Part shown: positions 6,765 through 22,877 of the stretch, piece after piece | Position numbering within the stretch: position 1 is the stretch's first letter | Layout of the letters: each line of letters starts with the position of its first letter | DNA from: an uncultured Roseovarius sp. | GTDB lineage: Bacteria; Pseudomonadota; Alphaproteobacteria; Rhodobacterales; Rhodobacteraceae | Direction of reading: 5' to 3' | NCBI GenBank assembly: GCA_947499555.1 | Contig: CANMOU010000001.1 | Coordinates: 1,116,001 to 1,180,000 of the forward strand | Length of the DNA: 64,000 nt | Made by a program: the position numbers and the translations under genes | The notes under the pieces: generated by a model | Told to the model about the DNA's origin: nothing | Database searches by the model: none | What the model saw: only the letters and a program-made list of their open reading frames with translations

Positions 6765-7649
6765 ATGTTTGCGTATTGCTCTGACCCCGCAACACTGGAA
6801 AGCCTGCGCTGGCTGTCCTGTTACCTGACAACCGGCAAGCATGTGAACTTGTACTACTCAGTGGTCACCGTGCTGGTGCTTCTCGCCATCACCGCGCCGA
6901 CCGCGCTCGCTTTCGGCTTTGCAGGGGCCACCGCCGCAAGATCCCGCTTCGCACCGCTAAGCTGGCTCGGCAAAGGCTATATCTCTGTCGTGCGCGGTGT
7001 GCCCGACATCGCCTTTTTCCTCTTTTTCGTCATTGCCCTCGACCAGGCCTTTGAATGGATCCGCCACAAGGTCAAATGCCCCGATTGGACCGAACCGGTG
7101 CGGCAAGGCAATGACTTCATTGTGTGTCAGGCCGCAAAACTACCCCTCAGTGAGTCGCCCCAATGGATGCATGAAACCTATGGGTTTTTCCTTGCTGTTC
7201 TCACCTTTGCCATCGTGTTCGGCGCCTTTGCAGCCAATGTGCTCTTTGGGGCCATGCGCGCCGTGCCGCGTGCCCAAATCGAAACCGCCGAGGCCTATGG
7301 CATGAGTCCGCGCCAAAGCTTCTGGCGCATTCTGGTCCCGCAGATGTGGGTCTATGCCCTGCCCGGCCTTTCCAACCTCTGGATGGTGCTCACCAAGGCC
7401 ACGCCGCTTTTGTTCCTCTTGGGTGTCGAAGACATCGTCTACTGGGCGCGCGAGCTGGGCGGCACCGCCCTGCCGCGCTTCACCGACTATCCGCATGGCG
7501 ACTGGCGCATGTGGTACTTCCTTGTGCTGCTGGTCTTCTACCTGGGCCTCACTAAAATCTCCGAGGTCTTCCTCGAACGCCTCATGACCCGCCTCACCCA
7601 TGGGCAGGCCACCACCGGCGGCGAAGCTCAGAGAAAGGCGGCGGCATGA
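6765..7649 (+). CDS. Amino acid ABC transporter permease (HisQ-like)
   Basis: An inner-membrane permease of 294 residues. Hydrophobic segments include YYSVVTVLVLLAITAPTALAFGF, DIAFFLFFVIAL, FFLAVLTFAIVFGAFAANVLFG and WYFLVLLVFYLGLT. The EAA loop that docks on the ATPase reads ETAEAYGMSPRQSFWRILVP. The protein carries a periplasmic or cytoplasmic insert (RHKVKCPDWTEPVRQGNDFIVCQ) with two cysteines between the first membrane helices, longer than in E. coli HisQ. The start ATG follows the hydrolase stop by one base, with GGAGGCGG upstream. It overlaps the next permease by ATGA. Confidence 0.92.
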   Translation: MFAYCSDPATLESLRWLSCYLTTGKHVNLYYSVVTVLVLLAITAPTALAFGFAGATAARSRFAPLSWLGKGYISVVRGVPDIAFFLFFVIALDQAFEWIRHKVKCPDWTEPVRQGNDFIVCQAAKLPLSESPQWMHETYGFFLAVLTFAIVFGAFAANVLFGAMRAVPRAQIETAEAYGMSPRQSFWRILVPQMWVYALPGLSNLWMVLTKATPLLFLLGVEDIVYWARELGGTALPRFTDYPHGDWRMWYFLVLLVFYLGLTKISEVFLERLMTRLTHGQATTGGEAQRKAAA

Positions 7650-8452
7650 ACTGCTGGGAAACCGTTCAGGCCTATGCCTTTCGCTCAGTGGGTTTTGGCG
7701 AAAGGCTTTTGCCAAAAGAGGATTTCACCCTCTGCCAGCAATTCACCCTGATCGGCTCAGGCATGATCTGGAACGTCTATTTCGGCGCGCTGGCGCTGGC
7801 GCTGGGCTTTTTCCTCGCCACCGCCGTGGCGCTTGGCAAAGGCGCGCAAAACCCGCTACTGCGCAAACTCTCGGAATGGTTCATCTTCCTCTTCCGGGGC
7901 TCTCCGCTTTTCATCCAGTTCTTCTTTGCCTATTTCGCCTTCCTCAGCCTCAAGCAGGTCAACCCGATCTTTGACCCCTTCACTGCGGCGTGGCTTGGTG
8001 CGCTCATCGTGCTTTTCCTCAACACCGCGGCCTATTCGGGCGAGATCTTCTATGGCGCGCTGCGGTCGATCCCGAAAGGCGATGTCGAGGCGGCAGATGC
8101 CTACGGCTTTTCCGGCTGGCCGCGCTTCCGGCGCATCATCTGGCCGACCATGCTGCGGCTTGCCTGGCCTGCCTATACCAATGAGGCCATCTTTCTTTTC
8201 CACGCCACGACGCTGGTTTTCTTCTCGGCCTTCCCCGCCTGGCAACAGCGGGGCGACGCGCTCTATTACGCCAATTACTTCGCCGACAAGACGTTCAACC
8301 CCTTCGTGCCCTACCCGATACTTGCCGGATACTTCATCCTGCTCACATTGTGCGTCATCGGGCTATTCGGGCTGGTGAACCGCTATCTCAACCGGCATCT
8401 GCCGCAGGAAAACCGCGGCAGGCTGAAGCTCCGGATGAACATCATCCGCTGA
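7646..8452 (+). CDS. Amino acid ABC transporter permease (HisM-like)
   Basis: The second inner-membrane permease, 268 residues, forming the heterodimeric channel with the preceding gene. Membrane helices are visible at MIWNVYFGALALALGFFLATAVAL, WLGALIVLFLNTAAYSGEIFYGAL and ILAGYFILLTLCVIGLFGLV, and the EAA loop reads DVEAADAYGFSGWPRFRRIIWP. It starts at ATG 7646, overlapping the stop of the first permease by four bases. It ends the operon; a Rhodobacteraceae-type GC-rich repeat lies just downstream, followed by the convergent DUF4336 gene. Confidence 0.92.
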   Translation: MNCWETVQAYAFRSVGFGERLLPKEDFTLCQQFTLIGSGMIWNVYFGALALALGFFLATAVALGKGAQNPLLRKLSEWFIFLFRGSPLFIQFFFAYFAFLSLKQVNPIFDPFTAAWLGALIVLFLNTAAYSGEIFYGALRSIPKGDVEAADAYGFSGWPRFRRIIWPTMLRLAWPAYTNEAIFLFHATTLVFFSAFPAWQQRGDALYYANYFADKTFNPFVPYPILAGYFILLTLCVIGLFGLVNRYLNRHLPQENRGRLKLRMNIIR

Positions 8453-14633: not shown

Positions 14634-14647
14634 AATTTGATCAAATT
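14634..14647. promoter_or_regulatory. Perfect palindrome AATTTGATCAAATT, operator 1 of gamma-glutamyl cluster
   Basis: A perfect 14-bp palindrome 61 bases upstream of the first glutamine-synthetase-like start. The identical 14-mer occurs at 16062-16075 before the amidotransferase gene. A search by eye found no third intergenic copy, so it is specific to this cluster within the window. It has the size and symmetry of a dimeric repressor site. Confidence 0.7.
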
Positions 14648-14707
14648 CATCTGGAAGCCCGGCCCGCTTCGCTTTAGGCTGCGCCAAATTCTGCGGGACA
14701 GCGGGCA

Positions 14708-16024
14708 ATGGACTTAAGCCAGTATCAAACCTTTCGCGTGGCGGCGTGTGATCTGAACGGGCGCATGCGTGGCAAGCGCGTGCCGGGCTCTTATGCCGAG
14801 AAACTCGCCAAAGGCGCAGTGCGCATGCCGTTTTCGGCCAGCAACGTGGACATCTTCGGCCTTGATATCGAGGACAGCCCGCTTGTGTTCGAGACCGGCG
14901 ATGCAGATGGCGTGCTTTTGCCCACCGATCGCGGGCCGGTGCCTCTGCCCTGGCTGGATCAGGATCAGCCGCTGGTACCCATGGCATTGCATTACGACGA
15001 TGGCACGCCTTTTGAAGGCGATCCGCGGCATGCGCTGGCCGCCGTGATCGAGCGCTATGCCGCGCGCGGCTGGAAAGTGATCGCAGCGACCGAGCTGGAA
15101 TTCACGCTGGTCGATGACAGCGCAGACGCGCTCAGCCCGGTCAAGGATCCCGCCACAGGGCGCGAGATCGAGGTGGCCGATGTGCTCTCCATCGCGCAGC
15201 TCGATATGTTCGATCCCTTCCTCAGCGAGCTTTATGCGGCTTGCGCGGATATGGATATCCCCGTGCAGACGGCGACCTGCGAATCCGGGCTGGGCCAGTT
15301 CGAGTTTACGCTCAACCATCAGGGTGCGATGCGCGCCGCCGATGACACCTGGCTCTTCAAGCGGCTGATCCGCCGTGTGGCCCGCAATCATGGGTTTGCC
15401 GCCACGTTCATGGCCAAGCCCTTTGCCAATGATGCCGGCAACGGGATGCATATGCATTTCTCCGTGCTCGATGCGGATGGTCATAACGTGTTCGACAATG
15501 GCGGCGATGAAGGGTCTGAGACGCTGCATTACGCCATCGCGGGTTGCCTTGCGGCGATGCGCGACAGCACGTTGATCTTTGCCCCGCATGCCAACAGCTA
15601 TGACCGGCTTGTGCCCGGCGCGCATGCGCCAACGGCAATCTGCTGGGCCTATGAAAACCGCACAGCGGCGGTGCGTGTGCCGGGCGGCACGCCCAAGGCC
15701 CGCCGGATCGAGCATCGTGTGGCCGGGGGCGATACCAACCCCTACCTCACCTTTGCAGCCGTGCTGGGCGCGGCCATGAACGGCATTGAGGACGCCACCC
15801 TGCCCCCGGCCCCGATCGAGGGCAATTCCTACGATCTGGACCTGCCGCAACTGGCCGAGGATTGGGACATGGCCATCGCCCTCTTTGAAGGCAGTGATGC
15901 GATGGCGCGGGTTTTTCATGCCGATCTTATCCGCAACCTGGCGCTCACCAAGCGGCAGGAAATGCGCCTGATGTCCGAGCGGCCTGTTGACGAACACTGG
16001 AAAATCTATCTCGAAACCGTGTAG
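14708..16024 (+). CDS. Glutamine synthetase-like gamma-glutamyl ligase 1 (PuuA/GlnT type)
   Basis: A 438-residue member of the glutamine synthetase superfamily, which joins the gamma-carboxyl of glutamate to an amine using ATP. Catalytic-domain motifs are AATELEFTLVD, SGLGQFEFTLNHQ, GNGMHMHFSVLD and the NPYLTFAAVLG stretch. The N-terminal beta-grasp part is short (CDLNGRMRGKRVP), as in PuuA-like enzymes that act on putrescine or other amines. It is followed by an amidotransferase, a second ligase and an FAD oxidase, an arrangement like the Puu pathway of putrescine degradation. The acceptor amine is not shown by sequence. Confidence 0.88.
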   Translation: MDLSQYQTFRVAACDLNGRMRGKRVPGSYAEKLAKGAVRMPFSASNVDIFGLDIEDSPLVFETGDADGVLLPTDRGPVPLPWLDQDQPLVPMALHYDDGTPFEGDPRHALAAVIERYAARGWKVIAATELEFTLVDDSADALSPVKDPATGREIEVADVLSIAQLDMFDPFLSELYAACADMDIPVQTATCESGLGQFEFTLNHQGAMRAADDTWLFKRLIRRVARNHGFAATFMAKPFANDAGNGMHMHFSVLDADGHNVFDNGGDEGSETLHYAIAGCLAAMRDSTLIFAPHANSYDRLVPGAHAPTAICWAYENRTAAVRVPGGTPKARRIEHRVAGGDTNPYLTFAAVLGAAMNGIEDATLPPAPIEGNSYDLDLPQLAEDWDMAIALFEGSDAMARVFHADLIRNLALTKRQEMRLMSERPVDEHWKIYLETV

Positions 16025-16061
16025 ATCAGGCTTGAGTGATGGTTTGCCCACGGCTAGCCTG

Positions 16062-16075
16062 AATTTGATCAAATT
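16062..16075. promoter_or_regulatory. Perfect palindrome AATTTGATCAAATT, operator 2 of gamma-glutamyl cluster
   Basis: The same perfect 14-bp palindrome as at 14634-14647. It is centred about 16 bases upstream of the amidotransferase start, between the first ligase gene and the rest of the cluster. The position suits a repressor site that would give the downstream genes separate control within the same regulon. Confidence 0.7.
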
Positions 16076-16084
16076 TGGTGACTT

Positions 16085-16762
16085 ATGAAAATCGGCATCC
16101 TGATGACCGGCCACGCCCTTCCCGATCTGATCGAGGATACGGGCGACTATGATATGATGTTTGCCACCCTGCTGGCCGAAAACGGCTTTACGTTTGAACG
16201 GTTCAATGTGGTGGACGAAGAATATCCCAACAGCCCGGATGACGCCGATGGATGGCTGATCACCGGCTCAAAACACGGCGCCTATGAGGACCACCCCTGG
16301 ATCCCGCCGCTGGAGGCCTTCATCCGCGACATTCGCGATGCGGGCAAGCCGCTCATCGGTGTCTGCTTTGGTCATCAGATCATCGCGCAGGCGCTTGGCG
16401 GTACGGTGGTGAAGTTTGATGGCGGCTGGTCGGTGGGGCGCACCGACTATGAGATCGAGGGCGAGACATTCTCTATGCATGCTTGGCATCAGGATCAGGT
16501 GATCACGCCGCCGGACGGGGCGCAAATCATTGGTCACTCGGATTTCTGCGAAAATGCGGCGATGCTGATCGGCGACACGATCCTGACCATTCAGCCACAT
16601 CCCGAGTTCACCTCGCATATCCTCAGCACCATCATAGACCAGCGCGGCAAGGGCGTGGTGCCCGACGCGCTGCTGGAGGCGGCAAGCGCCACCGCACAAA
16701 CACCGACCGACAGTGCCGATTTCGGCAAGCGGATGGCCGATCATTTCAGAAAAGGGGCCTGA
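16085..16762 (+). CDS. Class I glutamine amidotransferase domain protein
   Basis: A 225-residue class I glutamine amidotransferase of the GMP-synthase-like group. The nucleophile elbow is GVCFGHQIIAQALGG with the catalytic Cys, and QPHPEF near residue 178 supplies the His and Glu. As a stand-alone protein it can hydrolyse gamma-glutamyl amides; in the Puu pathway the equivalent step removes glutamate from gamma-glutamyl-GABA, though E. coli PuuD is of a different subfamily (peptidase C26). It lies between two ligase genes, 3 bases before the second, so the same transcript is likely. Alternative: an amidotransferase acting on an unknown gamma-glutamyl compound. Confidence 0.85.
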   Translation: MKIGILMTGHALPDLIEDTGDYDMMFATLLAENGFTFERFNVVDEEYPNSPDDADGWLITGSKHGAYEDHPWIPPLEAFIRDIRDAGKPLIGVCFGHQIIAQALGGTVVKFDGGWSVGRTDYEIEGETFSMHAWHQDQVITPPDGAQIIGHSDFCENAAMLIGDTILTIQPHPEFTSHILSTIIDQRGKGVVPDALLEAASATAQTPTDSADFGKRMADHFRKGA

Positions 16763-16765
16763 GCC

Positions 16766-18127
16766 ATGGCCAAAGACTGGATCGCAAAACTGCCCGAAGC
16801 GGCGCAAAGCTATCTCGATGGCAAACGACTCGATGAGGTTGAATGCATCATCGCCGACCTGCCCGGGATCGCGCGCGGCAAGGCCGTACCCGCCAGCAAG
16901 TTCGCGCGGCAAAGCTATTTCCACCTGCCCGACTCGATCTTCTACCAGACGATCACCGGCGATTGGGGAGAAGCGGCAGGCGACGAAGGCTTTATCGAGC
17001 GTGACATGGTGCTGAAACCGGATATGGACACGGCCTCTGCCGCACCCTGGACCGGCGACTGGACGCTGCAGGTCATTCACGACGCCTATGATCGCGAAGG
17101 CAAACCGATTGCCTGTGCGCCGCGCAATGTGCTCAAGCGCGTCGTGAAAATGTACGAGAAAATGGGGCTGACGCCCGTGGTGGCCCCGGAAATGGAGTTT
17201 TTCCTGATCGGTCGAAACCTCGACCCACGACAGGAAATCGCGCCCATGGTGGGCCGCTCTGGCAGGCCCGCCGCCGCGCGGCAGGCCTATTCGATGACCG
17301 CCGTGGATGAATTTGGCCCGGTGATCGACGACATCTATGATTTCGCCGAAGCGCAGGGCTTTGAGATTGACGGCATCACCCAGGAAGGCGGCGCCGGTCA
17401 GCTGGAAATCAACCTGCGCCATGGCGATCCGGTGAAGCTTGCCGATGAGGTGTTCTATTTCAAACGCTTCATCCGCGAGGCGGCCCTGCGGCATGACTGT
17501 TTTGCCACTTTCATGGCCAAACCCATTGCCGCCGAGCCGGGCAGCGCGATGCATATCCATCATTCGATCATCGACGCCGAGACCGGCAAGAACGCTTTTT
17601 CCGGTCCTCAGGGTGGGGAAACGGACATGTTTTACCACTTCATCGGTGGGCTGCAGACGCATCTGCCCGCCGCCATCGCCGTGATGGCGCCCTACGTGAA
17701 TTCTTATCGCCGCTATGTGCGCGACAACGCGGCCCCCATCAACCTTGAATGGGGACGCGACAATCGCACCACGGGCATCCGCGTGCCGCTCTCCCCGCCC
17801 GAGGCGCGACGCATCGAAAACCGCATCGCGGGCATGGATTGCAATCCCTATCTGGGCATCGCCGTCAGCCTGGCCTGCGGTCTTCTGGGCATCATGAACG
17901 AGACCCGCCCCAAGGGGCAGTATCGCGGCGACGCCTATGAGGGCGAGCCGGATTTCCCCAATGAGCTGGGGGCGGCGCTTGATCTCTTTGATGACGCGAC
18001 AGACCTGCACAAGATTCTCGATCCCGAATTCGCACGGGTCTATTCGATTGTGAAACGCGCCGAATATGCCGAGTTCCTGCAGGTGATTTCTCCTTGGGAA
18101 CGTGAGCATCTGCTGCTTAATGTCTAA
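16766..18127 (+). CDS. Glutamine synthetase-like gamma-glutamyl ligase 2
   Basis: A 453-residue second member of the glutamine synthetase superfamily. Catalytic motifs are VVAPEMEFFLIGR, GGAGQLEINLRHGD, SAMHIHHSIID and CNPYLGIAVSLACG. It is not a close copy of ligase 1: for example EMEFF replaces ELEFT and MHIHHS replaces MHMHFS, so the two probably have different amine specificity. It starts 3 bases after the amidotransferase stop and overlaps the next gene by 8 bases. Cytoplasmic. True glutamine synthetase (GlnA) is excluded by the short N-terminal domain and divergence around the adenylylation loop. Confidence 0.88.
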   Translation: MAKDWIAKLPEAAQSYLDGKRLDEVECIIADLPGIARGKAVPASKFARQSYFHLPDSIFYQTITGDWGEAAGDEGFIERDMVLKPDMDTASAAPWTGDWTLQVIHDAYDREGKPIACAPRNVLKRVVKMYEKMGLTPVVAPEMEFFLIGRNLDPRQEIAPMVGRSGRPAAARQAYSMTAVDEFGPVIDDIYDFAEAQGFEIDGITQEGGAGQLEINLRHGDPVKLADEVFYFKRFIREAALRHDCFATFMAKPIAAEPGSAMHIHHSIIDAETGKNAFSGPQGGETDMFYHFIGGLQTHLPAAIAVMAPYVNSYRRYVRDNAAPINLEWGRDNRTTGIRVPLSPPEARRIENRIAGMDCNPYLGIAVSLACGLLGIMNETRPKGQYRGDAYEGEPDFPNELGAALDLFDDATDLHKILDPEFARVYSIVKRAEYAEFLQVISPWEREHLLLNV

Positions 18128-19271
18128 ACGTGCATTTGTCCTTGCCGGGCTGGCTCTTTTTGTGACCGTCATGGTTTGGGGTTGGCCACGGTCACTTTTG
18201 CAGGAAAAGGCGGATACGCCGCGTGAGGACGTCAATCGACATGCATTTTTGCAAGATCTGAACCTGGAGAATGACGCCGACCGCTATGCGCTGTTGCTGC
18301 ACCCGCTGGCCACGGGCGACGGCGTGCGCGCCGTCACCGACGCGGGTGCCCTGATGGCCGCCCAGCCGCGGGCTTTCTACACCGACAACCCCGGTGCCGC
18401 GCTCAGGCGCACGCTTTTGTCGATTGTGTTCCTCAGCCCGCCGGGCATGCCGCCCAGCAATCGGTTCGTCACCGTGGTGAAGGACAAGGAGACCGAGACC
18501 GAGTTCACCTGCTACGCGGCCTATTGCAACGGCACGACCGACCTTACCCCCCGGCACGAACGCGATCTGGCCGGGCTGCTGGAGGCCTCGCAGCCGGTCG
18601 AATACGTGCAAGACAGTTTTGCCCATCACGACAAGGCGCGCGCAGCGCATTTCCGTCTTTTGAAAAACCCGGATGTCGTGCTGATCGACCCGCCGAACCT
18701 GCCTGCCCCCGGCACGCTGGTCTTTCCACACCGGGTGATCCTGAACCTGCCCGCCATCCTGCTGGAGACCGACGCCACCGGCGAGACCCCGGTCACCCCC
18801 TTCGATCAGCAGGACCTTGAGGCGCGGTTTCGCGCGGCGTTCACCCACGCCTATCCCAAGACGGATGAATACCGGCTTGGGGCGATGAACGTGACCACCT
18901 ATTTCCCGCCCGAACGGGGATGGCCCGTCGTCTCGGACCAGATCGAAGGGTATCTGCAGGGCGCGGACGGGGTTCACACCGGCTTGGACCGTTTGATGGT
19001 GATCGAACCAAGCATCGCGGTTGAACTGCATGCGCCCATGCAAGAGGCGCTGTTGGGCCCCGATGCCTTTGCCCTGATGCCCGAGTTCCTGCCGCCTGAA
19101 CCGCCCAGCGTGGCCGACCGTCTGTCGCAGTTGGCCGCGGTGCATCTGGGCGGCCCCTGCCCTGACTGTTTCAAGATCGAACTGCCGGTGGCCACGGTGG
19201 ATGGCATCCGCGTGGACAAGGTCAAACCCATCCCCTTCATCCTGTCCTACTACCGGATCGTAGCCCCATGA
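18120..19271 (+). CDS. Unknown membrane-anchored protein in gamma-glutamyl cluster
   Basis: A 383-residue protein of no family I recognise. A single N-terminal hydrophobic segment (AFVLAGLALFVTVMVWGW) after MSKR looks like a signal anchor; the remaining 350 residues would be periplasmic. Two cysteine pairs, CYAAYC (about 132-137) and CPDC (about 353-356), could form disulphides or bind metal. The ATG at 18120 overlaps the stop of ligase 2 by 8 bases, and its stop overlaps the FAD oxidase start by ATGA, so it is translationally coupled on both sides. The location suggests a link to periplasmic handling of the substrate, but no function can be stated. Confidence 0.78.
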   Translation: MSKRAFVLAGLALFVTVMVWGWPRSLLQEKADTPREDVNRHAFLQDLNLENDADRYALLLHPLATGDGVRAVTDAGALMAAQPRAFYTDNPGAALRRTLLSIVFLSPPGMPPSNRFVTVVKDKETETEFTCYAAYCNGTTDLTPRHERDLAGLLEASQPVEYVQDSFAHHDKARAAHFRLLKNPDVVLIDPPNLPAPGTLVFPHRVILNLPAILLETDATGETPVTPFDQQDLEARFRAAFTHAYPKTDEYRLGAMNVTTYFPPERGWPVVSDQIEGYLQGADGVHTGLDRLMVIEPSIAVELHAPMQEALLGPDAFALMPEFLPPEPPSVADRLSQLAAVHLGGPCPDCFKIELPVATVDGIRVDKVKPIPFILSYYRIVAP

Positions 19272-20572
19272 ACCTGCTTTATTCCAATGACCGCCCCGGG
19301 CAGTATCCGCCAAGCTGGTACGCCGCCACGGCCACGGCGCTGGACCCGTTCGAGCCCCTGAAAGGCGAGACGCGCGCGGATGTCTGCGTGGTGGGCGGCG
19401 GCTTCACCGGCCTGTCGGCGGCGCTGCATCTGGCCGAAGCGGGGTATGACGTGGCGCTGATTGAGGCGCATCGCGTGGGCTTTGGGGCCTCAGGGCGCAA
19501 TGGCGGTCAGCTCGGCAGCGGGCAACGGCAGGATCAGCAGACGCTGGAAAAACTGGTTGGACGCGAGGATGCAACCAAGCTTTGGGTATTGGCGGAAGCC
19601 GCCAAGGATCTGGTCAAATCACTGATTTCCAAGCACAAGATCGACTGCCATCTGAAATCTGGCATTGCCCATGCCGGGTTCACTATGGGCGAAGTCGACG
19701 AAGAACATGCCTATGCCGATTTTCTGGCTCAGCGTTATGGGTACACCGTGCTGGAAAAGCTGGATCATGACGCGATGCAGGCGCTTTGCCCCTCGCCGCG
19801 CTATGTGGGCGGCTCGCTCGATATGACAGCCGCGCATCTGCATCCTTTGGCTTATGCCTTGGGGCTGGCGCGAGCCGCAGCAAAAGCAGGCGTGCGGATT
19901 TATGAGCGCAGCGAAGTGCACAACATCACCCCCGGCACGCCGGCTCTCGTGCAGACCGACAAGGGCCGGATCAAGGCCGATCACGTGATCCTGGGCTGCA
20001 ACGGGTATCTGGGCGGGCTCGATCGCAAAGTGGCAGCGCGGGTGATGCCCATTAACAATTTCGTTGTGGCCACAGAGGCATTGGGCGATGAGGCAGCGCG
20101 CGTTCTGACCCGCGATGTGGCCGTGGCCGACAGCAAGTTCGTGGTGAATTACTTTCGCTTGAGCCATGACAAACGCCTGCTTTTTGGCGGTGGCGAAAGC
20201 TATGGCTACCGCTTCCCGTCTGACATTGCGGCGCTGGTGCGCAAGCCGATGACCCAGATTTTCCCGCATCTGCGGGATGTGAGGATCGACTATGCCTGGG
20301 GCGGGACTTTGGCGATTACGATGAAGCGCATGCCCTACCTGGCGCGGCTTGCACCGAATATCCTCACGGCCTCGGGCTATTCGGGTCACGGCGTCGGCAC
20401 AGCGACCTTCTCAGGCAAGCTTATGGCCGACGCGATTGCCGGCGAGGCGGAAGGTTTTGACACCATGGCCGGCGTGCCTACCCCGGCATTTCCCGGGGGC
20501 ACGGCGCTGCGCTCTCCGCTTCTGGCTCTTGCGATGACCTGGTACGCCACACGCGACCGGCTGGGGCTCTGA
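19268..20572 (+). CDS. FAD-dependent oxidoreductase (PuuB/DAO family)
   Basis: A 434-residue flavoprotein of the D-amino-acid oxidase superfamily, related to gamma-glutamylputrescine oxidase, which oxidises the amine of a gamma-glutamylated substrate. The FAD loop is DVCVVGGGFTGLSAALHLAEAGYDVALIEA (GGGFTG), followed by GFGASGRNGGQLGSGQRQDQ, typical of the family. The C-terminal FAD contact reads GYSGHGVGTATFSGKLMAD. The ATG overlaps the stop of the unknown upstream gene. A role after the ligases, oxidising gamma-glutamyl amines, is inferred from the operon; sarcosine-type oxidases are alternatives. Confidence 0.88.
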   Translation: MNLLYSNDRPGQYPPSWYAATATALDPFEPLKGETRADVCVVGGGFTGLSAALHLAEAGYDVALIEAHRVGFGASGRNGGQLGSGQRQDQQTLEKLVGREDATKLWVLAEAAKDLVKSLISKHKIDCHLKSGIAHAGFTMGEVDEEHAYADFLAQRYGYTVLEKLDHDAMQALCPSPRYVGGSLDMTAAHLHPLAYALGLARAAAKAGVRIYERSEVHNITPGTPALVQTDKGRIKADHVILGCNGYLGGLDRKVAARVMPINNFVVATEALGDEAARVLTRDVAVADSKFVVNYFRLSHDKRLLFGGGESYGYRFPSDIAALVRKPMTQIFPHLRDVRIDYAWGGTLAITMKRMPYLARLAPNILTASGYSGHGVGTATFSGKLMADAIAGEAEGFDTMAGVPTPAFPGGTALRSPLLALAMTWYATRDRLGL

Positions 20573-20651: not shown

Positions 20652-20694
20652 ATATTCGGAAAATCGAAAAACTATCTTGAGGTTATCCGAATAT
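20652..20694 (+). promoter_or_regulatory. RNA hairpin sequestering ribosome binding site and start codon
   Basis: ATATTCGGA (20652-20660) is a perfect 9-base inverted repeat of TCCGAATAT (20686-20694). The second arm contains the start of the ATG of the aminotransferase gene at 20693, and the TTGAGG ribosome binding site at about 20677-20682 lies in the 25-base loop. In mRNA this would form a stem that hides the start codon, a typical layout for thermosensors or translational control. Confidence 0.5.
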
Positions 20695-21904
20695 GTCACT
20701 TCCCCCCAATGTCTACGATGCCGAACCGATCCCCGAAGCCGCGCGCGCCGAAATTGATAAACTTCTGAAATCCGGTGATCTTTTTCGATATACCGCTGCC
20801 AAGGACGCCCCTGTTGCCCTTCTGGAGCGGGAAATTGCAGCATTCATGGGCAGCACCTATGCGTTGGCGGTCTCCTCCTGCTCGGCGGCATTGTTTCTGT
20901 CGCTGAAGGCATTGGGTCTGAGACCCGGTGCGCGGGTTCTGATCCCGGCCTTTACCTTTGCTGCCGTTCCTTCGTCTGTGGTGCACGCGGACTGCGTCCC
21001 TGTGCTCTGTGAGGTGAAAGACAATTACAGAATTGATATCAAGGGCTTTGAGGCAAGACTTGACGCGGATATCGAGGCCGTGATCATCAGCCATATGCGG
21101 GGCCATACGTCAGATATGGACGCGATTATGGCCCTGTGTGATGCGCGCGGCATCCCGGTCATTGAGGACGCCGCCCATAGCCTTGGCACAACATGGTCGG
21201 GGCGCAATATCGGCACGATCGGGCGCGTGGGCTGTTTCAGCTTTCAGTCCTACAAGCTGGTGAATGCCGGCGAAGGTGGGGTCATGATCACCGATGATGC
21301 CGATCTGGTGGCGCAGGCGGTGATCATGTCCGGCGCTTATGAACACAACTGGGCCAAGCATATGGCCGTCTCTGACACAGCGCTGGAAGCGGCTTTTGCC
21401 AGATGGCAAAATCGCCTGCCGCTTTACAATCTGCGCATGGGCAATCTGTCGGCAGCGATCATTCGCCCGCAGCTTGCCGAGATCCCGCGCCGCGTACGTG
21501 ACGGGCGGGCCAACCATGATTATGTCGCGACACGGCTCAACACATCGCCGTGGATGCACGTGCCTGAGAAGCTCAAACCCGAAGAGCGCGCCCCGGACTC
21601 GATTCAGTTCAATCTTGTGAACCTTTCCGAGGCCGAGACCGATGCCTTCGCCAAAGCCGCCGCCGAACGCGGCGTGAAGGTGCAGGTTTTCGGACAAAGC
21701 ACCGACAATGCGCGCGCCTTCTGGAACTGGAAATTCCTCGACAACCCGGTGCCCGACCTGCCGCAAACCCGCAAAATGCTGATGCGGGCCTGCGACGTGC
21801 GTCTGCCTGCACGACTGAACCGCGAAGAGCTAGATATCATTTCAGAGGCACTTGTGATGGCTGCACAGGATGTGATGGGCGCACTGCGCGCTTATGGCAC
21901 GTGA
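20693..21904 (+). CDS. DegT/DnrJ/EryC1/StrS family aminotransferase
   Basis: A PLP-dependent enzyme of 403 residues from the sugar-aminotransferase family, which transfers amino groups to keto-sugars or, in the sensory role of DegT, to other keto compounds. The PLP lysine is in SFQSYKLVNAGEGG (Lys188). Conserved blocks are VSSCSAALFLSLKALGLRPG, VLIPAFTFAA and VIEDAAHSLGT. No sugar nucleotide or glycosyltransferase gene is near, so its pathway is not evident. It is preceded by a predicted hairpin around the start codon and converges on a LysR gene. Confidence 0.88.
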   Translation: MSLPPNVYDAEPIPEAARAEIDKLLKSGDLFRYTAAKDAPVALLEREIAAFMGSTYALAVSSCSAALFLSLKALGLRPGARVLIPAFTFAAVPSSVVHADCVPVLCEVKDNYRIDIKGFEARLDADIEAVIISHMRGHTSDMDAIMALCDARGIPVIEDAAHSLGTTWSGRNIGTIGRVGCFSFQSYKLVNAGEGGVMITDDADLVAQAVIMSGAYEHNWAKHMAVSDTALEAAFARWQNRLPLYNLRMGNLSAAIIRPQLAEIPRRVRDGRANHDYVATRLNTSPWMHVPEKLKPEERAPDSIQFNLVNLSEAETDAFAKAAAERGVKVQVFGQSTDNARAFWNWKFLDNPVPDLPQTRKMLMRACDVRLPARLNREELDIISEALVMAAQDVMGALRAYGT

Positions 21905-21911
21905 AGAACGT

Positions 21912-22877
21912 CTAAAGCACCACGAGCTTTTCGCGCAAAAACGGATAGGCCTGCAAGGCAGGCGCGACGATTGTCTCCTGCAGAATTGGCCGCAGGGCAT
22001 CTGCCACCTGTCCTGGCATGTCCTGCAGGATATCCTTGCGCGCGGTGACGCTGATCGTCCGTGTCAGAGGCTCAAAGGGAAGTTCCAGCACATCGATCTG
22101 ATCTGCAAAGCGGCGCGCCCGCATCAGCGCGAGCGGTGGCAGGATTGTCCAGCCGGCCCCCTGGCCCACCAGCGCGAGGATGGCGTGGTAGCTGTCGAGT
22201 TCAAACCGGTGTGGCAAGCTCAGATGGTGCCGCGCGAGATGCGCACTGAGCAGACGGCCCATGTAATGGCGCTGCGTGTACTGAATAAGCGGCAGGTCCT
22301 TGAGCTCGGCCAGGACATCGCCCTGCACTTTGACACGCCCTTTGGGCACAGCCGCAACAAAGCCTTCGCGCAAGAGTGGATGCACCTCTGACCAATCGTC
22401 GCCGGTATCCAGCTCGGCGGCCACAATCACATCGAGCGACCGCGAATCGAGTAGGTCGTAAAGATAGTGACTGGCCCCTGTCTCAAGCAGAAACTGGCTG
22501 GCCTTGAGATCCGTCGCCATTTGCGCCAACAGGCGCGGTGTGACATCCGCCTCGAAATCCTCGATCATTCCCAGCCTGAGGCGCGGCAGGCGCGCCAGAT
22601 CGGACTCTGCCAGTTCGGCACGCGCCTGTGCCGCTTCGTTCAGGATCACCTGTGCGCGGCGGCGCAGTATCTCTCCTGCAGGTGTCAGGCGCACCGGACG
22701 CGCGTTACGCTGCAGAAGCGTCGCACCAACGGCTTTTTCAAGATTTGTTAGCTGCTGGCTGACCGCAGAAGGGCTGGCCCCTAGCCGTTTCGCCGCCGCA
22801 GAGATCGAGCGTTCATCGGCGGCCGCAACAAAGACTTCAATACCCCAAAGCGTGATCTTGCCCGGGCTATCGACCAT
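21912..22877 (-). CDS. LysR family transcriptional regulator
   Basis: A 321-residue LysR regulator with an N-terminal winged helix (ITLWGIEVFVAAADERSISAAAKRLGASPSAVSQQLTNLEKAVGATLLQRN) and a C-terminal periplasmic-binding-like effector domain. It starts 6 bases downstream of the phaR stop on the same strand, using a GTGAG site inside the end of phaR, so the two regulators are probably cotranscribed. The effector is unknown. A link to PHA or carbon-storage control is inferred only from this arrangement. It converges on the DegT gene. Confidence 0.88.
   Translation of the reverse strand: MVDSPGKITLWGIEVFVAAADERSISAAAKRLGASPSAVSQQLTNLEKAVGATLLQRNARPVRLTPAGEILRRRAQVILNEAAQARAELAESDLARLPRLRLGMIEDFEADVTPRLLAQMATDLKASQFLLETGASHYLYDLLDSRSLDVIVAAELDTGDDWSEVHPLLREGFVAAVPKGRVKVQGDVLAELKDLPLIQYTQRHYMGRLLSAHLARHHLSLPHRFELDSYHAILALVGQGAGWTILPPLALMRARRFADQIDVLELPFEPLTRTISVTARKDILQDMPGQVADALRPILQETIVAPALQAYPFLREKLVVL

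Follow-up and report, generated by a model that had tools for sequence, protein, structure and literature searches.

A repeated palindrome in a Roseovarius gamma-glutamyl gene cluster is a predicted operator of a GntR/FCD-controlled polyamine regulon in Rhodobacteraceae

VanR, a GntR/FCD-type repressor of Caulobacter crescentus, controls vanillate genes, and its operator originates from that species. The operator sequence, ATTGGATCCAAT, is a 12-bp GATC-centred palindrome (PMC7970624, excerpt). Another member of the VanR group of FCD regulators, Atu1419 of Agrobacterium fabrum, represses genes in its own region through a short palindrome, which overlaps the -10 element at two genes; the effector domain of this group has six helices, not seven (PMC7797058, excerpt). 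Two other types of regulator have been linked to the gamma-glutamylated putrescine pathway. PuuR, the XRE-type regulator of E. coli, represses the puu genes, and GabR/MocR proteins, which regulate GABA and putrescine genes, carry a GntR-type DNA-binding domain; some predicted GabR regulons include puuA and puuD (PMC5320631, excerpt). Polyamines are regarded as an important component of marine dissolved organic matter (PMC8437039, excerpt). In Ruegeria pomeroyi, mutants confirmed a polyamine transporter; a potFGHI mutant (SPO3469) was impaired on cadaverine, putrescine and spermidine (PMC10130141, excerpt), and Spo3471 was described as an aminotransferase (PMC11075332, excerpt).

The window, which is the whole stretch of 64,000 nucleotides analysed from an uncultured Roseovarius sp., contains a gamma-glutamyl gene cluster (Table 1). 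A first-pass annotation had described two identical 14-bp palindromes in intergenic DNA upstream of ligase 1 (GS1) and of the amidotransferase, and both their positions and their exactness were confirmed. The perfect palindrome AATTTGATCAAATT was located 60 bp 5' of the GS1 ATG at 14708 and 9 bp 5' of the amidotransferase ATG at 16085. Beyond these two copies, the matches in the window with up to 3 mismatches were three sites, each with 3 mismatches; the total of 5 was not enriched relative to shuffled sequence (mean 2.31, with at least 5 in 11 of 100 shuffles). Under a first-order Markov model, 0.0004 exact copies were expected in the window and 2 were observed, and the 3,725,386-base genome held 3 against 0.025 expected. 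The earlier statement that the intergenic DNA of the window holds no further copy was right, and a third exact copy lay elsewhere in the genome, at C1:1422051. The genome contained 21 sites with up to 2 mismatches and none of the reversed control. A frequent, randomly scattered 14-mer would have spoken against regulation; the 14-mer was rare both in this genome (3 exact) and in the genomes of the family. On comparative grounds, we consider it highly probable that a VanR-group GntR/FCD protein uses the palindrome as its operator; this protein would repress polyamine-degradation genes in many marine Rhodobacteraceae and respond to a putative inducer.

Table 1. Cluster genes, predicted promoter elements and candidate operators in the window.
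Feature	Position	Strand	Remark
Candidate operator 1, AATTTGATCAAATT	14634..14647		Exact; precedes ligase 1 (GS1)
Predicted -35 element CTGGAA of GS1	14651..14656	+	3 bp after candidate operator 1; read from sequence
Predicted -10 element TAGGCT of GS1	14675..14680	+	18 bp spacer
Ligase 1 (GS1), glutamine-synthetase-fold putative gamma-glutamyl ligase	14708..16024	+	PF00120 E 1.9e-96; substrate inferred
Predicted -35 element TTGAGT, amidotransferase promoter	16032..16037	+	Read from sequence
Predicted -10 element TAGCCT, amidotransferase promoter	16055..16060	+	17 bp spacer; 1 bp before candidate operator 2
Candidate operator 2, AATTTGATCAAATT	16062..16075		Exact; over predicted transcription start of amidotransferase
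Class-I glutamine amidotransferase, putative gamma-glutamyl hydrolase, presumed PuuD-like role	16085..16762	+	PF00117 E 2e-14
Ligase 2 (GS2), glutamine-synthetase fold	16766..18127	+	PF00120 E 1.5e-100
381-aa protein, no family match	18126..19271	+	Overlaps ligase 2 and FAD oxidase genes
FAD-dependent amine oxidoreductase, presumed PuuB-like role	19268..20572	+	PF01266 E 1.3e-66
DegT/DnrJ/EryC1 aminotransferase	20693..21904	+	PF01041 E 6.3e-64; cluster end

The solved structure nearest to the amidotransferase was gamma-glutamyl peptidase 1 (E 2.3e-26). Both ligases scored below the curated cut-off of 650 bits for gamma-glutamylputrescine synthetase (NF045547), with 174.0 bits for GS1 and 170.1 bits for GS2, which speaks against the proposed regulon. 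The GS2 gene started 3 bp past the amidotransferase stop and is likely co-transcribed from the second candidate operator. The 381-aa protein had no match in Pfam or NCBIfam, and in one related genome (G043, L170) the ligase 2 and FAD oxidase genes were directly adjoining, with the gene for this protein absent between them. The operon membership of the DegT/DnrJ/EryC1 aminotransferase is uncertain; no site with up to 2 mismatches was found upstream of it. A HisM-type permease gene (7646-8452 in the window) was separated from ligase 1 by about 6 kb that included fructose-bisphosphate aldolase and other genes; in several other genera (e.g. L136, L143, L150 and L160), such a gene stood directly before ligase 1.

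The conservation of both sites was evaluated in 80 loci encoding ligase 1 relatives, which were the best 80 of 163 and often came from one genus, so that the counts are not independent. Of the 80 loci, 30 had a site with up to 2 mismatches within 500 bp 5' of ligase 1 and 34 had one just 3' of ligase 1, before the amidotransferase; the reversed control was found in 0 of 80 at either position. Over the whole loci, 75 sites were counted against 1 control site. The expectation that orthologous promoters would carry the palindrome was borne out for at least one of the two positions in 41 loci, 23 of which had both; it failed for a majority of the 41 more distant loci, which lacked both sites. Most of the sites came from the first 39 loci (L024-L062), which were mainly Roseovarius and had 26 upstream and 32 downstream sites; the remaining 41 (L063-L103, mostly more distant) had 4 and 2, respectively. 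Neither site was present in 39 of the 80 loci, which counts against the operator reading. The GS1 site had a mean information of 1.78 bits per position against 0.17 and 0.42 bits in its flanks (31 sequences); for the aligned sites overall, the values were 1.78 and 1.87 bits, and the flanks had diverged to 0.17-0.56 bits per position. A second, family-wide set contained 198 genomes, one per genus.

The position of the sites relative to the promoters was explored by scoring -35/-10 pairs around them by consensus. The phase windows were set after the offsets had been seen, and the controls were flanks shuffled by single bases in 40 rounds. At the amidotransferase, the predicted -10 element ended 1-2 bp before the site in 20 of the 34 promoters from the 80 loci (shuffled mean 0.28), so that the site covered the predicted start; the same phase was found in 6 of 8 family-wide cases (shuffled mean 0.08). 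At GS1, the site abutted the predicted -35 element in 23 of 30 promoters (shuffled mean 0.45), and the window had the same phase; several Roseovarius relatives had TTGGCA at the predicted -35 position. In the family-wide exact set, the GS1 site overlapped or followed the predicted -10 element in 17 of 26 cases (shuffled mean 1.4). In the promoters of the aminotransferase gene next to the 30 GntR genes, 26 of 28 sites had a right arm that doubled as the predicted -10 box (shuffled mean 1.7), which accounts for the constant departure of this site from the palindrome. The aminotransferase genes with exact sites in other genera showed the site against the predicted -35 element in 9 of 10 cases (shuffled mean 0.05). 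Hence, the candidate operator overlapped or abutted the predicted core promoter, with a position that switched between lineages. Such switching among related promoters fits a repressor that excludes polymerase, and the position of the operator suggests steric repression.

The same GntR regulator might instead activate some of these promoters. The centre of the ligase 1 site falls about 45 bp 5' of the predicted start, where an activator site would be placed, and the sites against the -35 element at GS1 and at the family-wide aminotransferase promoters are of the same kind. However, the GS1 promoters of other genera carried the site at the -10 element or the start, and the aminotransferase promoter of the type found in the own genome carried it over the -10 element. 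Since the position switched freely, occlusion fits better than activation, and we regard an activating role as unlikely.

The first-pass annotation had proposed one regulator for two entry points of the pathway, encoded at a distance and perhaps of the GntR or RpiR type. The comparative evidence agreed with this proposal and pointed to the GntR alternative. A gene for a 231-aa GntR/FCD protein was located outside the window, at G000:C2:777400-778092, and was flanked by two sites. One of them, GATTTGATCAAAAA, lay in the divergent promoter common to the GntR gene and an FAD oxidase gene, and the other, AATTTGATCATATT, preceded the class-III aminotransferase gene that adjoined the GntR gene. The degeneracy of GATTTGATCAAAAA (3 mismatches) and the absence of potF from the divergent position in this genome are points against the operator reading. 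Polyamine-type transporter genes lay about 4 kb beyond the GntR locus, with potA scoring 385 bits against a subfamily cut-off of 355.6. Among the 30 GntR orthologue loci, which were the best 30 matches, a site with up to 3 mismatches was present up to 181 bp 5' of the aligned GntR start in all 30, and a site was present within 61 bp 3' of the GntR gene in 26. At up to 2 mismatches, these loci contained 55 sites and 0 controls. A homologue of potF, which encodes the putrescine-binding protein, was divergent from the GntR gene in 29 of the 30 loci, the exception being the own genome with its FAD oxidase gene. The gene after GntR encoded a polyamine-type aminotransferase in 27 loci, a ligase-2-like protein in 2 and neither in 1. 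In one of the loci (L105:1-2172, genome G009), the GntR gene had no stop and read in frame through the candidate operator into the aminotransferase, giving a 724-codon frame up to the locus end, which may be either an assembly error or a natural fusion.

The adjacent genes were compared with solved structures. The PotF of L141 matched putrescine- and polyamine-binding proteins, 1a99 and 3ttm included, with E values of 9.8e-116 to 1.6e-108. The own class-III aminotransferase matched putrescine aminotransferase and polyamine:pyruvate transaminase at E 1e-181 and 1e-178, and its closer matches were transaminases without a polyamine name. The regulator and the sites were thus found together at polyamine uptake and catabolic genes, and this adjacency, together with the sites before the gamma-glutamyl genes, supported the polyamine-type regulon that had been proposed.

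The regulator protein had an N-terminal GntR winged helix (PF00392, 53.4 bits, cut-off 27) and a C-terminal FCD domain (PF07729, 68.1 bits, cut-off 24.3). These were its only Pfam matches, with no XRE and cupin pair of the PuuR type, and its length of 231 aa and FCD sensor did not correspond to the aminotransferase-fold sensor of MocR/GabR. A structure model was built from 29 aligned orthologues plus the FCD paralogue mentioned below, with L105 left out. The model had a pLDDT of 94.2 and showed the winged helix and six FCD helices (87-111, 114-133, 136-154, 157-181, 190-198 and 202-230), and the protein was placed in the VanR group because of this helix number (PMC7797058, excerpt). The short palindromic operator near the own gene that is typical of the group had its counterpart in the predicted binding site at all 30 orthologue loci. 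The nearest solved structure was E. coli McbR/YncC, and further Foldseek matches were other GntR regulators, Atu1419 (VanR) included. N143, H147 and H190 were invariant, and the position of the third metal-binding histidine, which is His in 7u5q and 3c7j, was an invariant D212; the protein therefore did not have the three His plus Asp/Asn of metal-binding FCD domains. An FCD paralogue encoded beside an accA-like gene (C2:916266) shared N143, H147, H190 and D212, so these residues do not set the polyamine regulator apart.

The exact 14-mer and the regulator were also compared across 120 genomes. The 14-mer occurred in 36 of 63 genomes with a GntR orthologue (E <= 1e-58) versus 4 of 57 without one (Fisher p = 2e-9). 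In one of these 4 site-only genomes (G021), the GntR gene was cut by the contig end (L155). The other 27 genomes with an orthologue had no exact 14-mer, a point against the proposed regulon, though all 30 loci inspected carried variants. In 240 genomes from the class, a match with E <= 1e-45 was found in only 3, all from the same family. Two other proteins might read the palindrome, namely the accA-side paralogue, the recognition helix of which is nearly identical (MTPAREAVRRL versus MTPVREAIRRL), and a LysR protein such as that encoded at 21912-22877, next to the cluster. No site with up to 2 mismatches was found near C2:916266, and of the 53 genomes that had no orthologue and no exact 14-mer, 42 still had a weaker, paralogue-type GntR match (E <= 1e-30). 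In G043 (L170), the aminotransferase gene was followed by the next gene without an intervening LysR gene. Moreover, neither protein explains the adjacency of the site to the GntR gene at every orthologue locus, and both were judged quite unlikely as binders. The VanR-group GntR/FCD protein at G000:C2:777400-778092 is very probably the protein that would bind the palindrome.

The exact 14-mer was found family-wide at 100 sites in 66 of the 198 genomes, and the reversed motif at 0. A control palindrome of the same composition and the same GATC core, AATTAGATCTAATT, had 1 site in the 198 genomes. The 12-base core was present in 31 of 61 genomes, against 1 for its reversed control. A perfect palindrome with a GATC core might also act as an RNA hairpin, a terminator or a DNA-methylation site, a reading that is very improbable. 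The only stem possible, as read from the sequence, was 5 bp of A-U around a 4-base loop, the outer changes were one-sided, and the GS1 site preceded the predicted start; the GATC core alone fails to account for the abundance, because the control palindrome with the same core was rare. Chance duplication, for which nothing speaks except the small number within one window, has a negligible probability given the family-wide count against the control and the conserved position, and it was rejected, as were the hairpin, terminator and methylation readings. We regard the repeated palindrome as a genuine and conserved operator serving a polyamine regulon, with its binding predicted from sequence comparison.

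The genes beside 75 of the 100 exact family sites, including the three of the own genome, were examined. A reference gene was assigned where the site lay up to 300 bp before the start, with up to 60 bp inside the gene allowed; 65 sites preceded such a gene, and 10 had none nearby, which counts against the proposed regulon. The search in related Rhodobacteraceae that had been suggested earlier returned mainly the anticipated genes, with ligase 1 after 28 sites, class-III aminotransferase after 10 and amidotransferase after 8. At 5 sites the following gene was a PuuC-like aldehyde dehydrogenase, which in 4 cases was divergent from a gene for a 1-Cys peroxiredoxin. A second aminotransferase (3), a third aminotransferase (2), GAPDH-like (2), ligase-2-like (2) and the GntR/potF pair (2) were less frequent, and DMGDH-like, gabD-like and fourth aminotransferase genes were single cases. 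Several small classes, these single cases among them, were defined from the sites themselves and are counted by construction; hence, 50 of 75 is the reliable count, comprising GS1, amidotransferase, class-III aminotransferase, GS2-like and the GntR/potF pair. The 14-mer stood between aldehyde dehydrogenase and divergent 1-Cys peroxiredoxin genes in four genera (L146, L172, L182 and L208), and such sites would couple amine oxidation with peroxide defence.

Other sites in the own genome were also located, some of them before further likely target genes. The second aminotransferase gene had AAATTGATCAAATT 23 bp before its start, and its homologues in 3 genera had the exact 14-mer 18-21 bp upstream. 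The third exact copy, at G000:C1:1422051-1422064 (L017:11052-11065), lay 73 bp 5' of a GAPDH-like gene, where a DinF-type MATE gene ends. Among 25 loci of the GAPDH-like gene, the own included, 4 had a site with up to 3 mismatches within 250 bp upstream, 2 of them exact, against 0 for the control, and the arrangement with the exact copy recurred in G099. The GAPDH-like gene is at best a patchy member of the regulon. The site TTTTTGATCAAATT (L019:9988-10001, G000:C2:541487) lay between two genes and upstream of both, at about 100 bp from a flavin oxidoreductase gene and about 680 bp from a gene for a PotF homologue, 41% identical to the L141 PotF. On a 145-kb contig, CTTTTGATCAAATT (L020:9953-9966, G000:C5:100352) preceded by about 90 bp a gene for a solute-binding protein that has a Tat-type signal. 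Of 11 own-genome matches to PuuC-like aldehyde dehydrogenase, the two closest had no site with up to 4 mismatches, which speaks against the proposed regulon. None of five other TTTGATCAAA cores was near a polyamine-looking gene; those of L164, L165 and L167:9292 were within long reading frames, that of L166 was inside a called frame, and L167:2992 preceded a gene with a Tat-type signal.

In the proposed repression mechanism, the GntR/FCD protein would act as a dimer, by analogy, and without inducer the dimer on AATTTGATCAAATT would block RNA polymerase. At the amidotransferase-ligase 2-oxidase operon, the bound dimer would cover the predicted start, and at ligase 1 it would abut the predicted -35 box. 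This repressor would also control its own gene and the divergent gene, which is potF in most of the relatives compared and the FAD oxidase gene in the own genome, and further targets would be the adjacent class-III aminotransferase gene together with other genes for aminotransferases and dehydrogenases. The inducer that releases the repressor may be a polyamine or an intermediate, either gamma-glutamylated or an aldehyde, so that the genes for uptake, glutamylation, oxidation, transamination and deglutamylation would be induced jointly. A bolder version, which we consider rather unlikely, is a family-restricted master repressor of polyamine use in marine Rhodobacteraceae, in which the FCD pocket with D212 may bind a cationic amine directly and the regulon would couple polyamine oxidation to peroxide defence through operators common to the aldehyde dehydrogenase gene and the divergent 1-Cys peroxiredoxin gene; an amine pocket formed by D212 is speculation. 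The candidate gene, operator and target list make the control of polyamine use testable, and the motif may help to assign genes of unknown role.

Among the open-access papers listed in the literature searches, none was found to describe the AATTTGATCAAATT operator or a polyamine regulator of the GntR/FCD type from Rhodobacteraceae; within that literature, the regulon and its operator appear to be undescribed, as the earlier annotation had supposed. The VanR operator, as given in the excerpted source, is one symmetric substitution away from ATTTGATCAAAT, and the genes regulated by VanR in Caulobacter crescentus differ from those of the regulon described here. Unlike the present regulator, Atu1419 is a tetramer with the operator ATGTATACAT and folate as a proposed effector (PMC7797058, excerpt). 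The metal site of Atu1419 has three His, one of which is Asp in the GntR regulator. E. coli McbR/YncC is structurally closest to the regulator (30% identity, TM 0.83). McbR/YncC is not known to act in polyamine catabolism in E. coli. PuuR has a cupin sensor, its operator differs from AATTTGATCAAATT, and it belongs to another DNA-binding family than the GntR regulator. The sensor of GabR/MocR is aminotransferase-like, whereas that of the GntR regulator is an FCD domain. Hence, both PuuR and GabR, the regulators of the gamma-glutamyl pathway in the papers compared, differ in family or subfamily from the GntR/FCD regulator that would control this pathway in Rhodobacteraceae.
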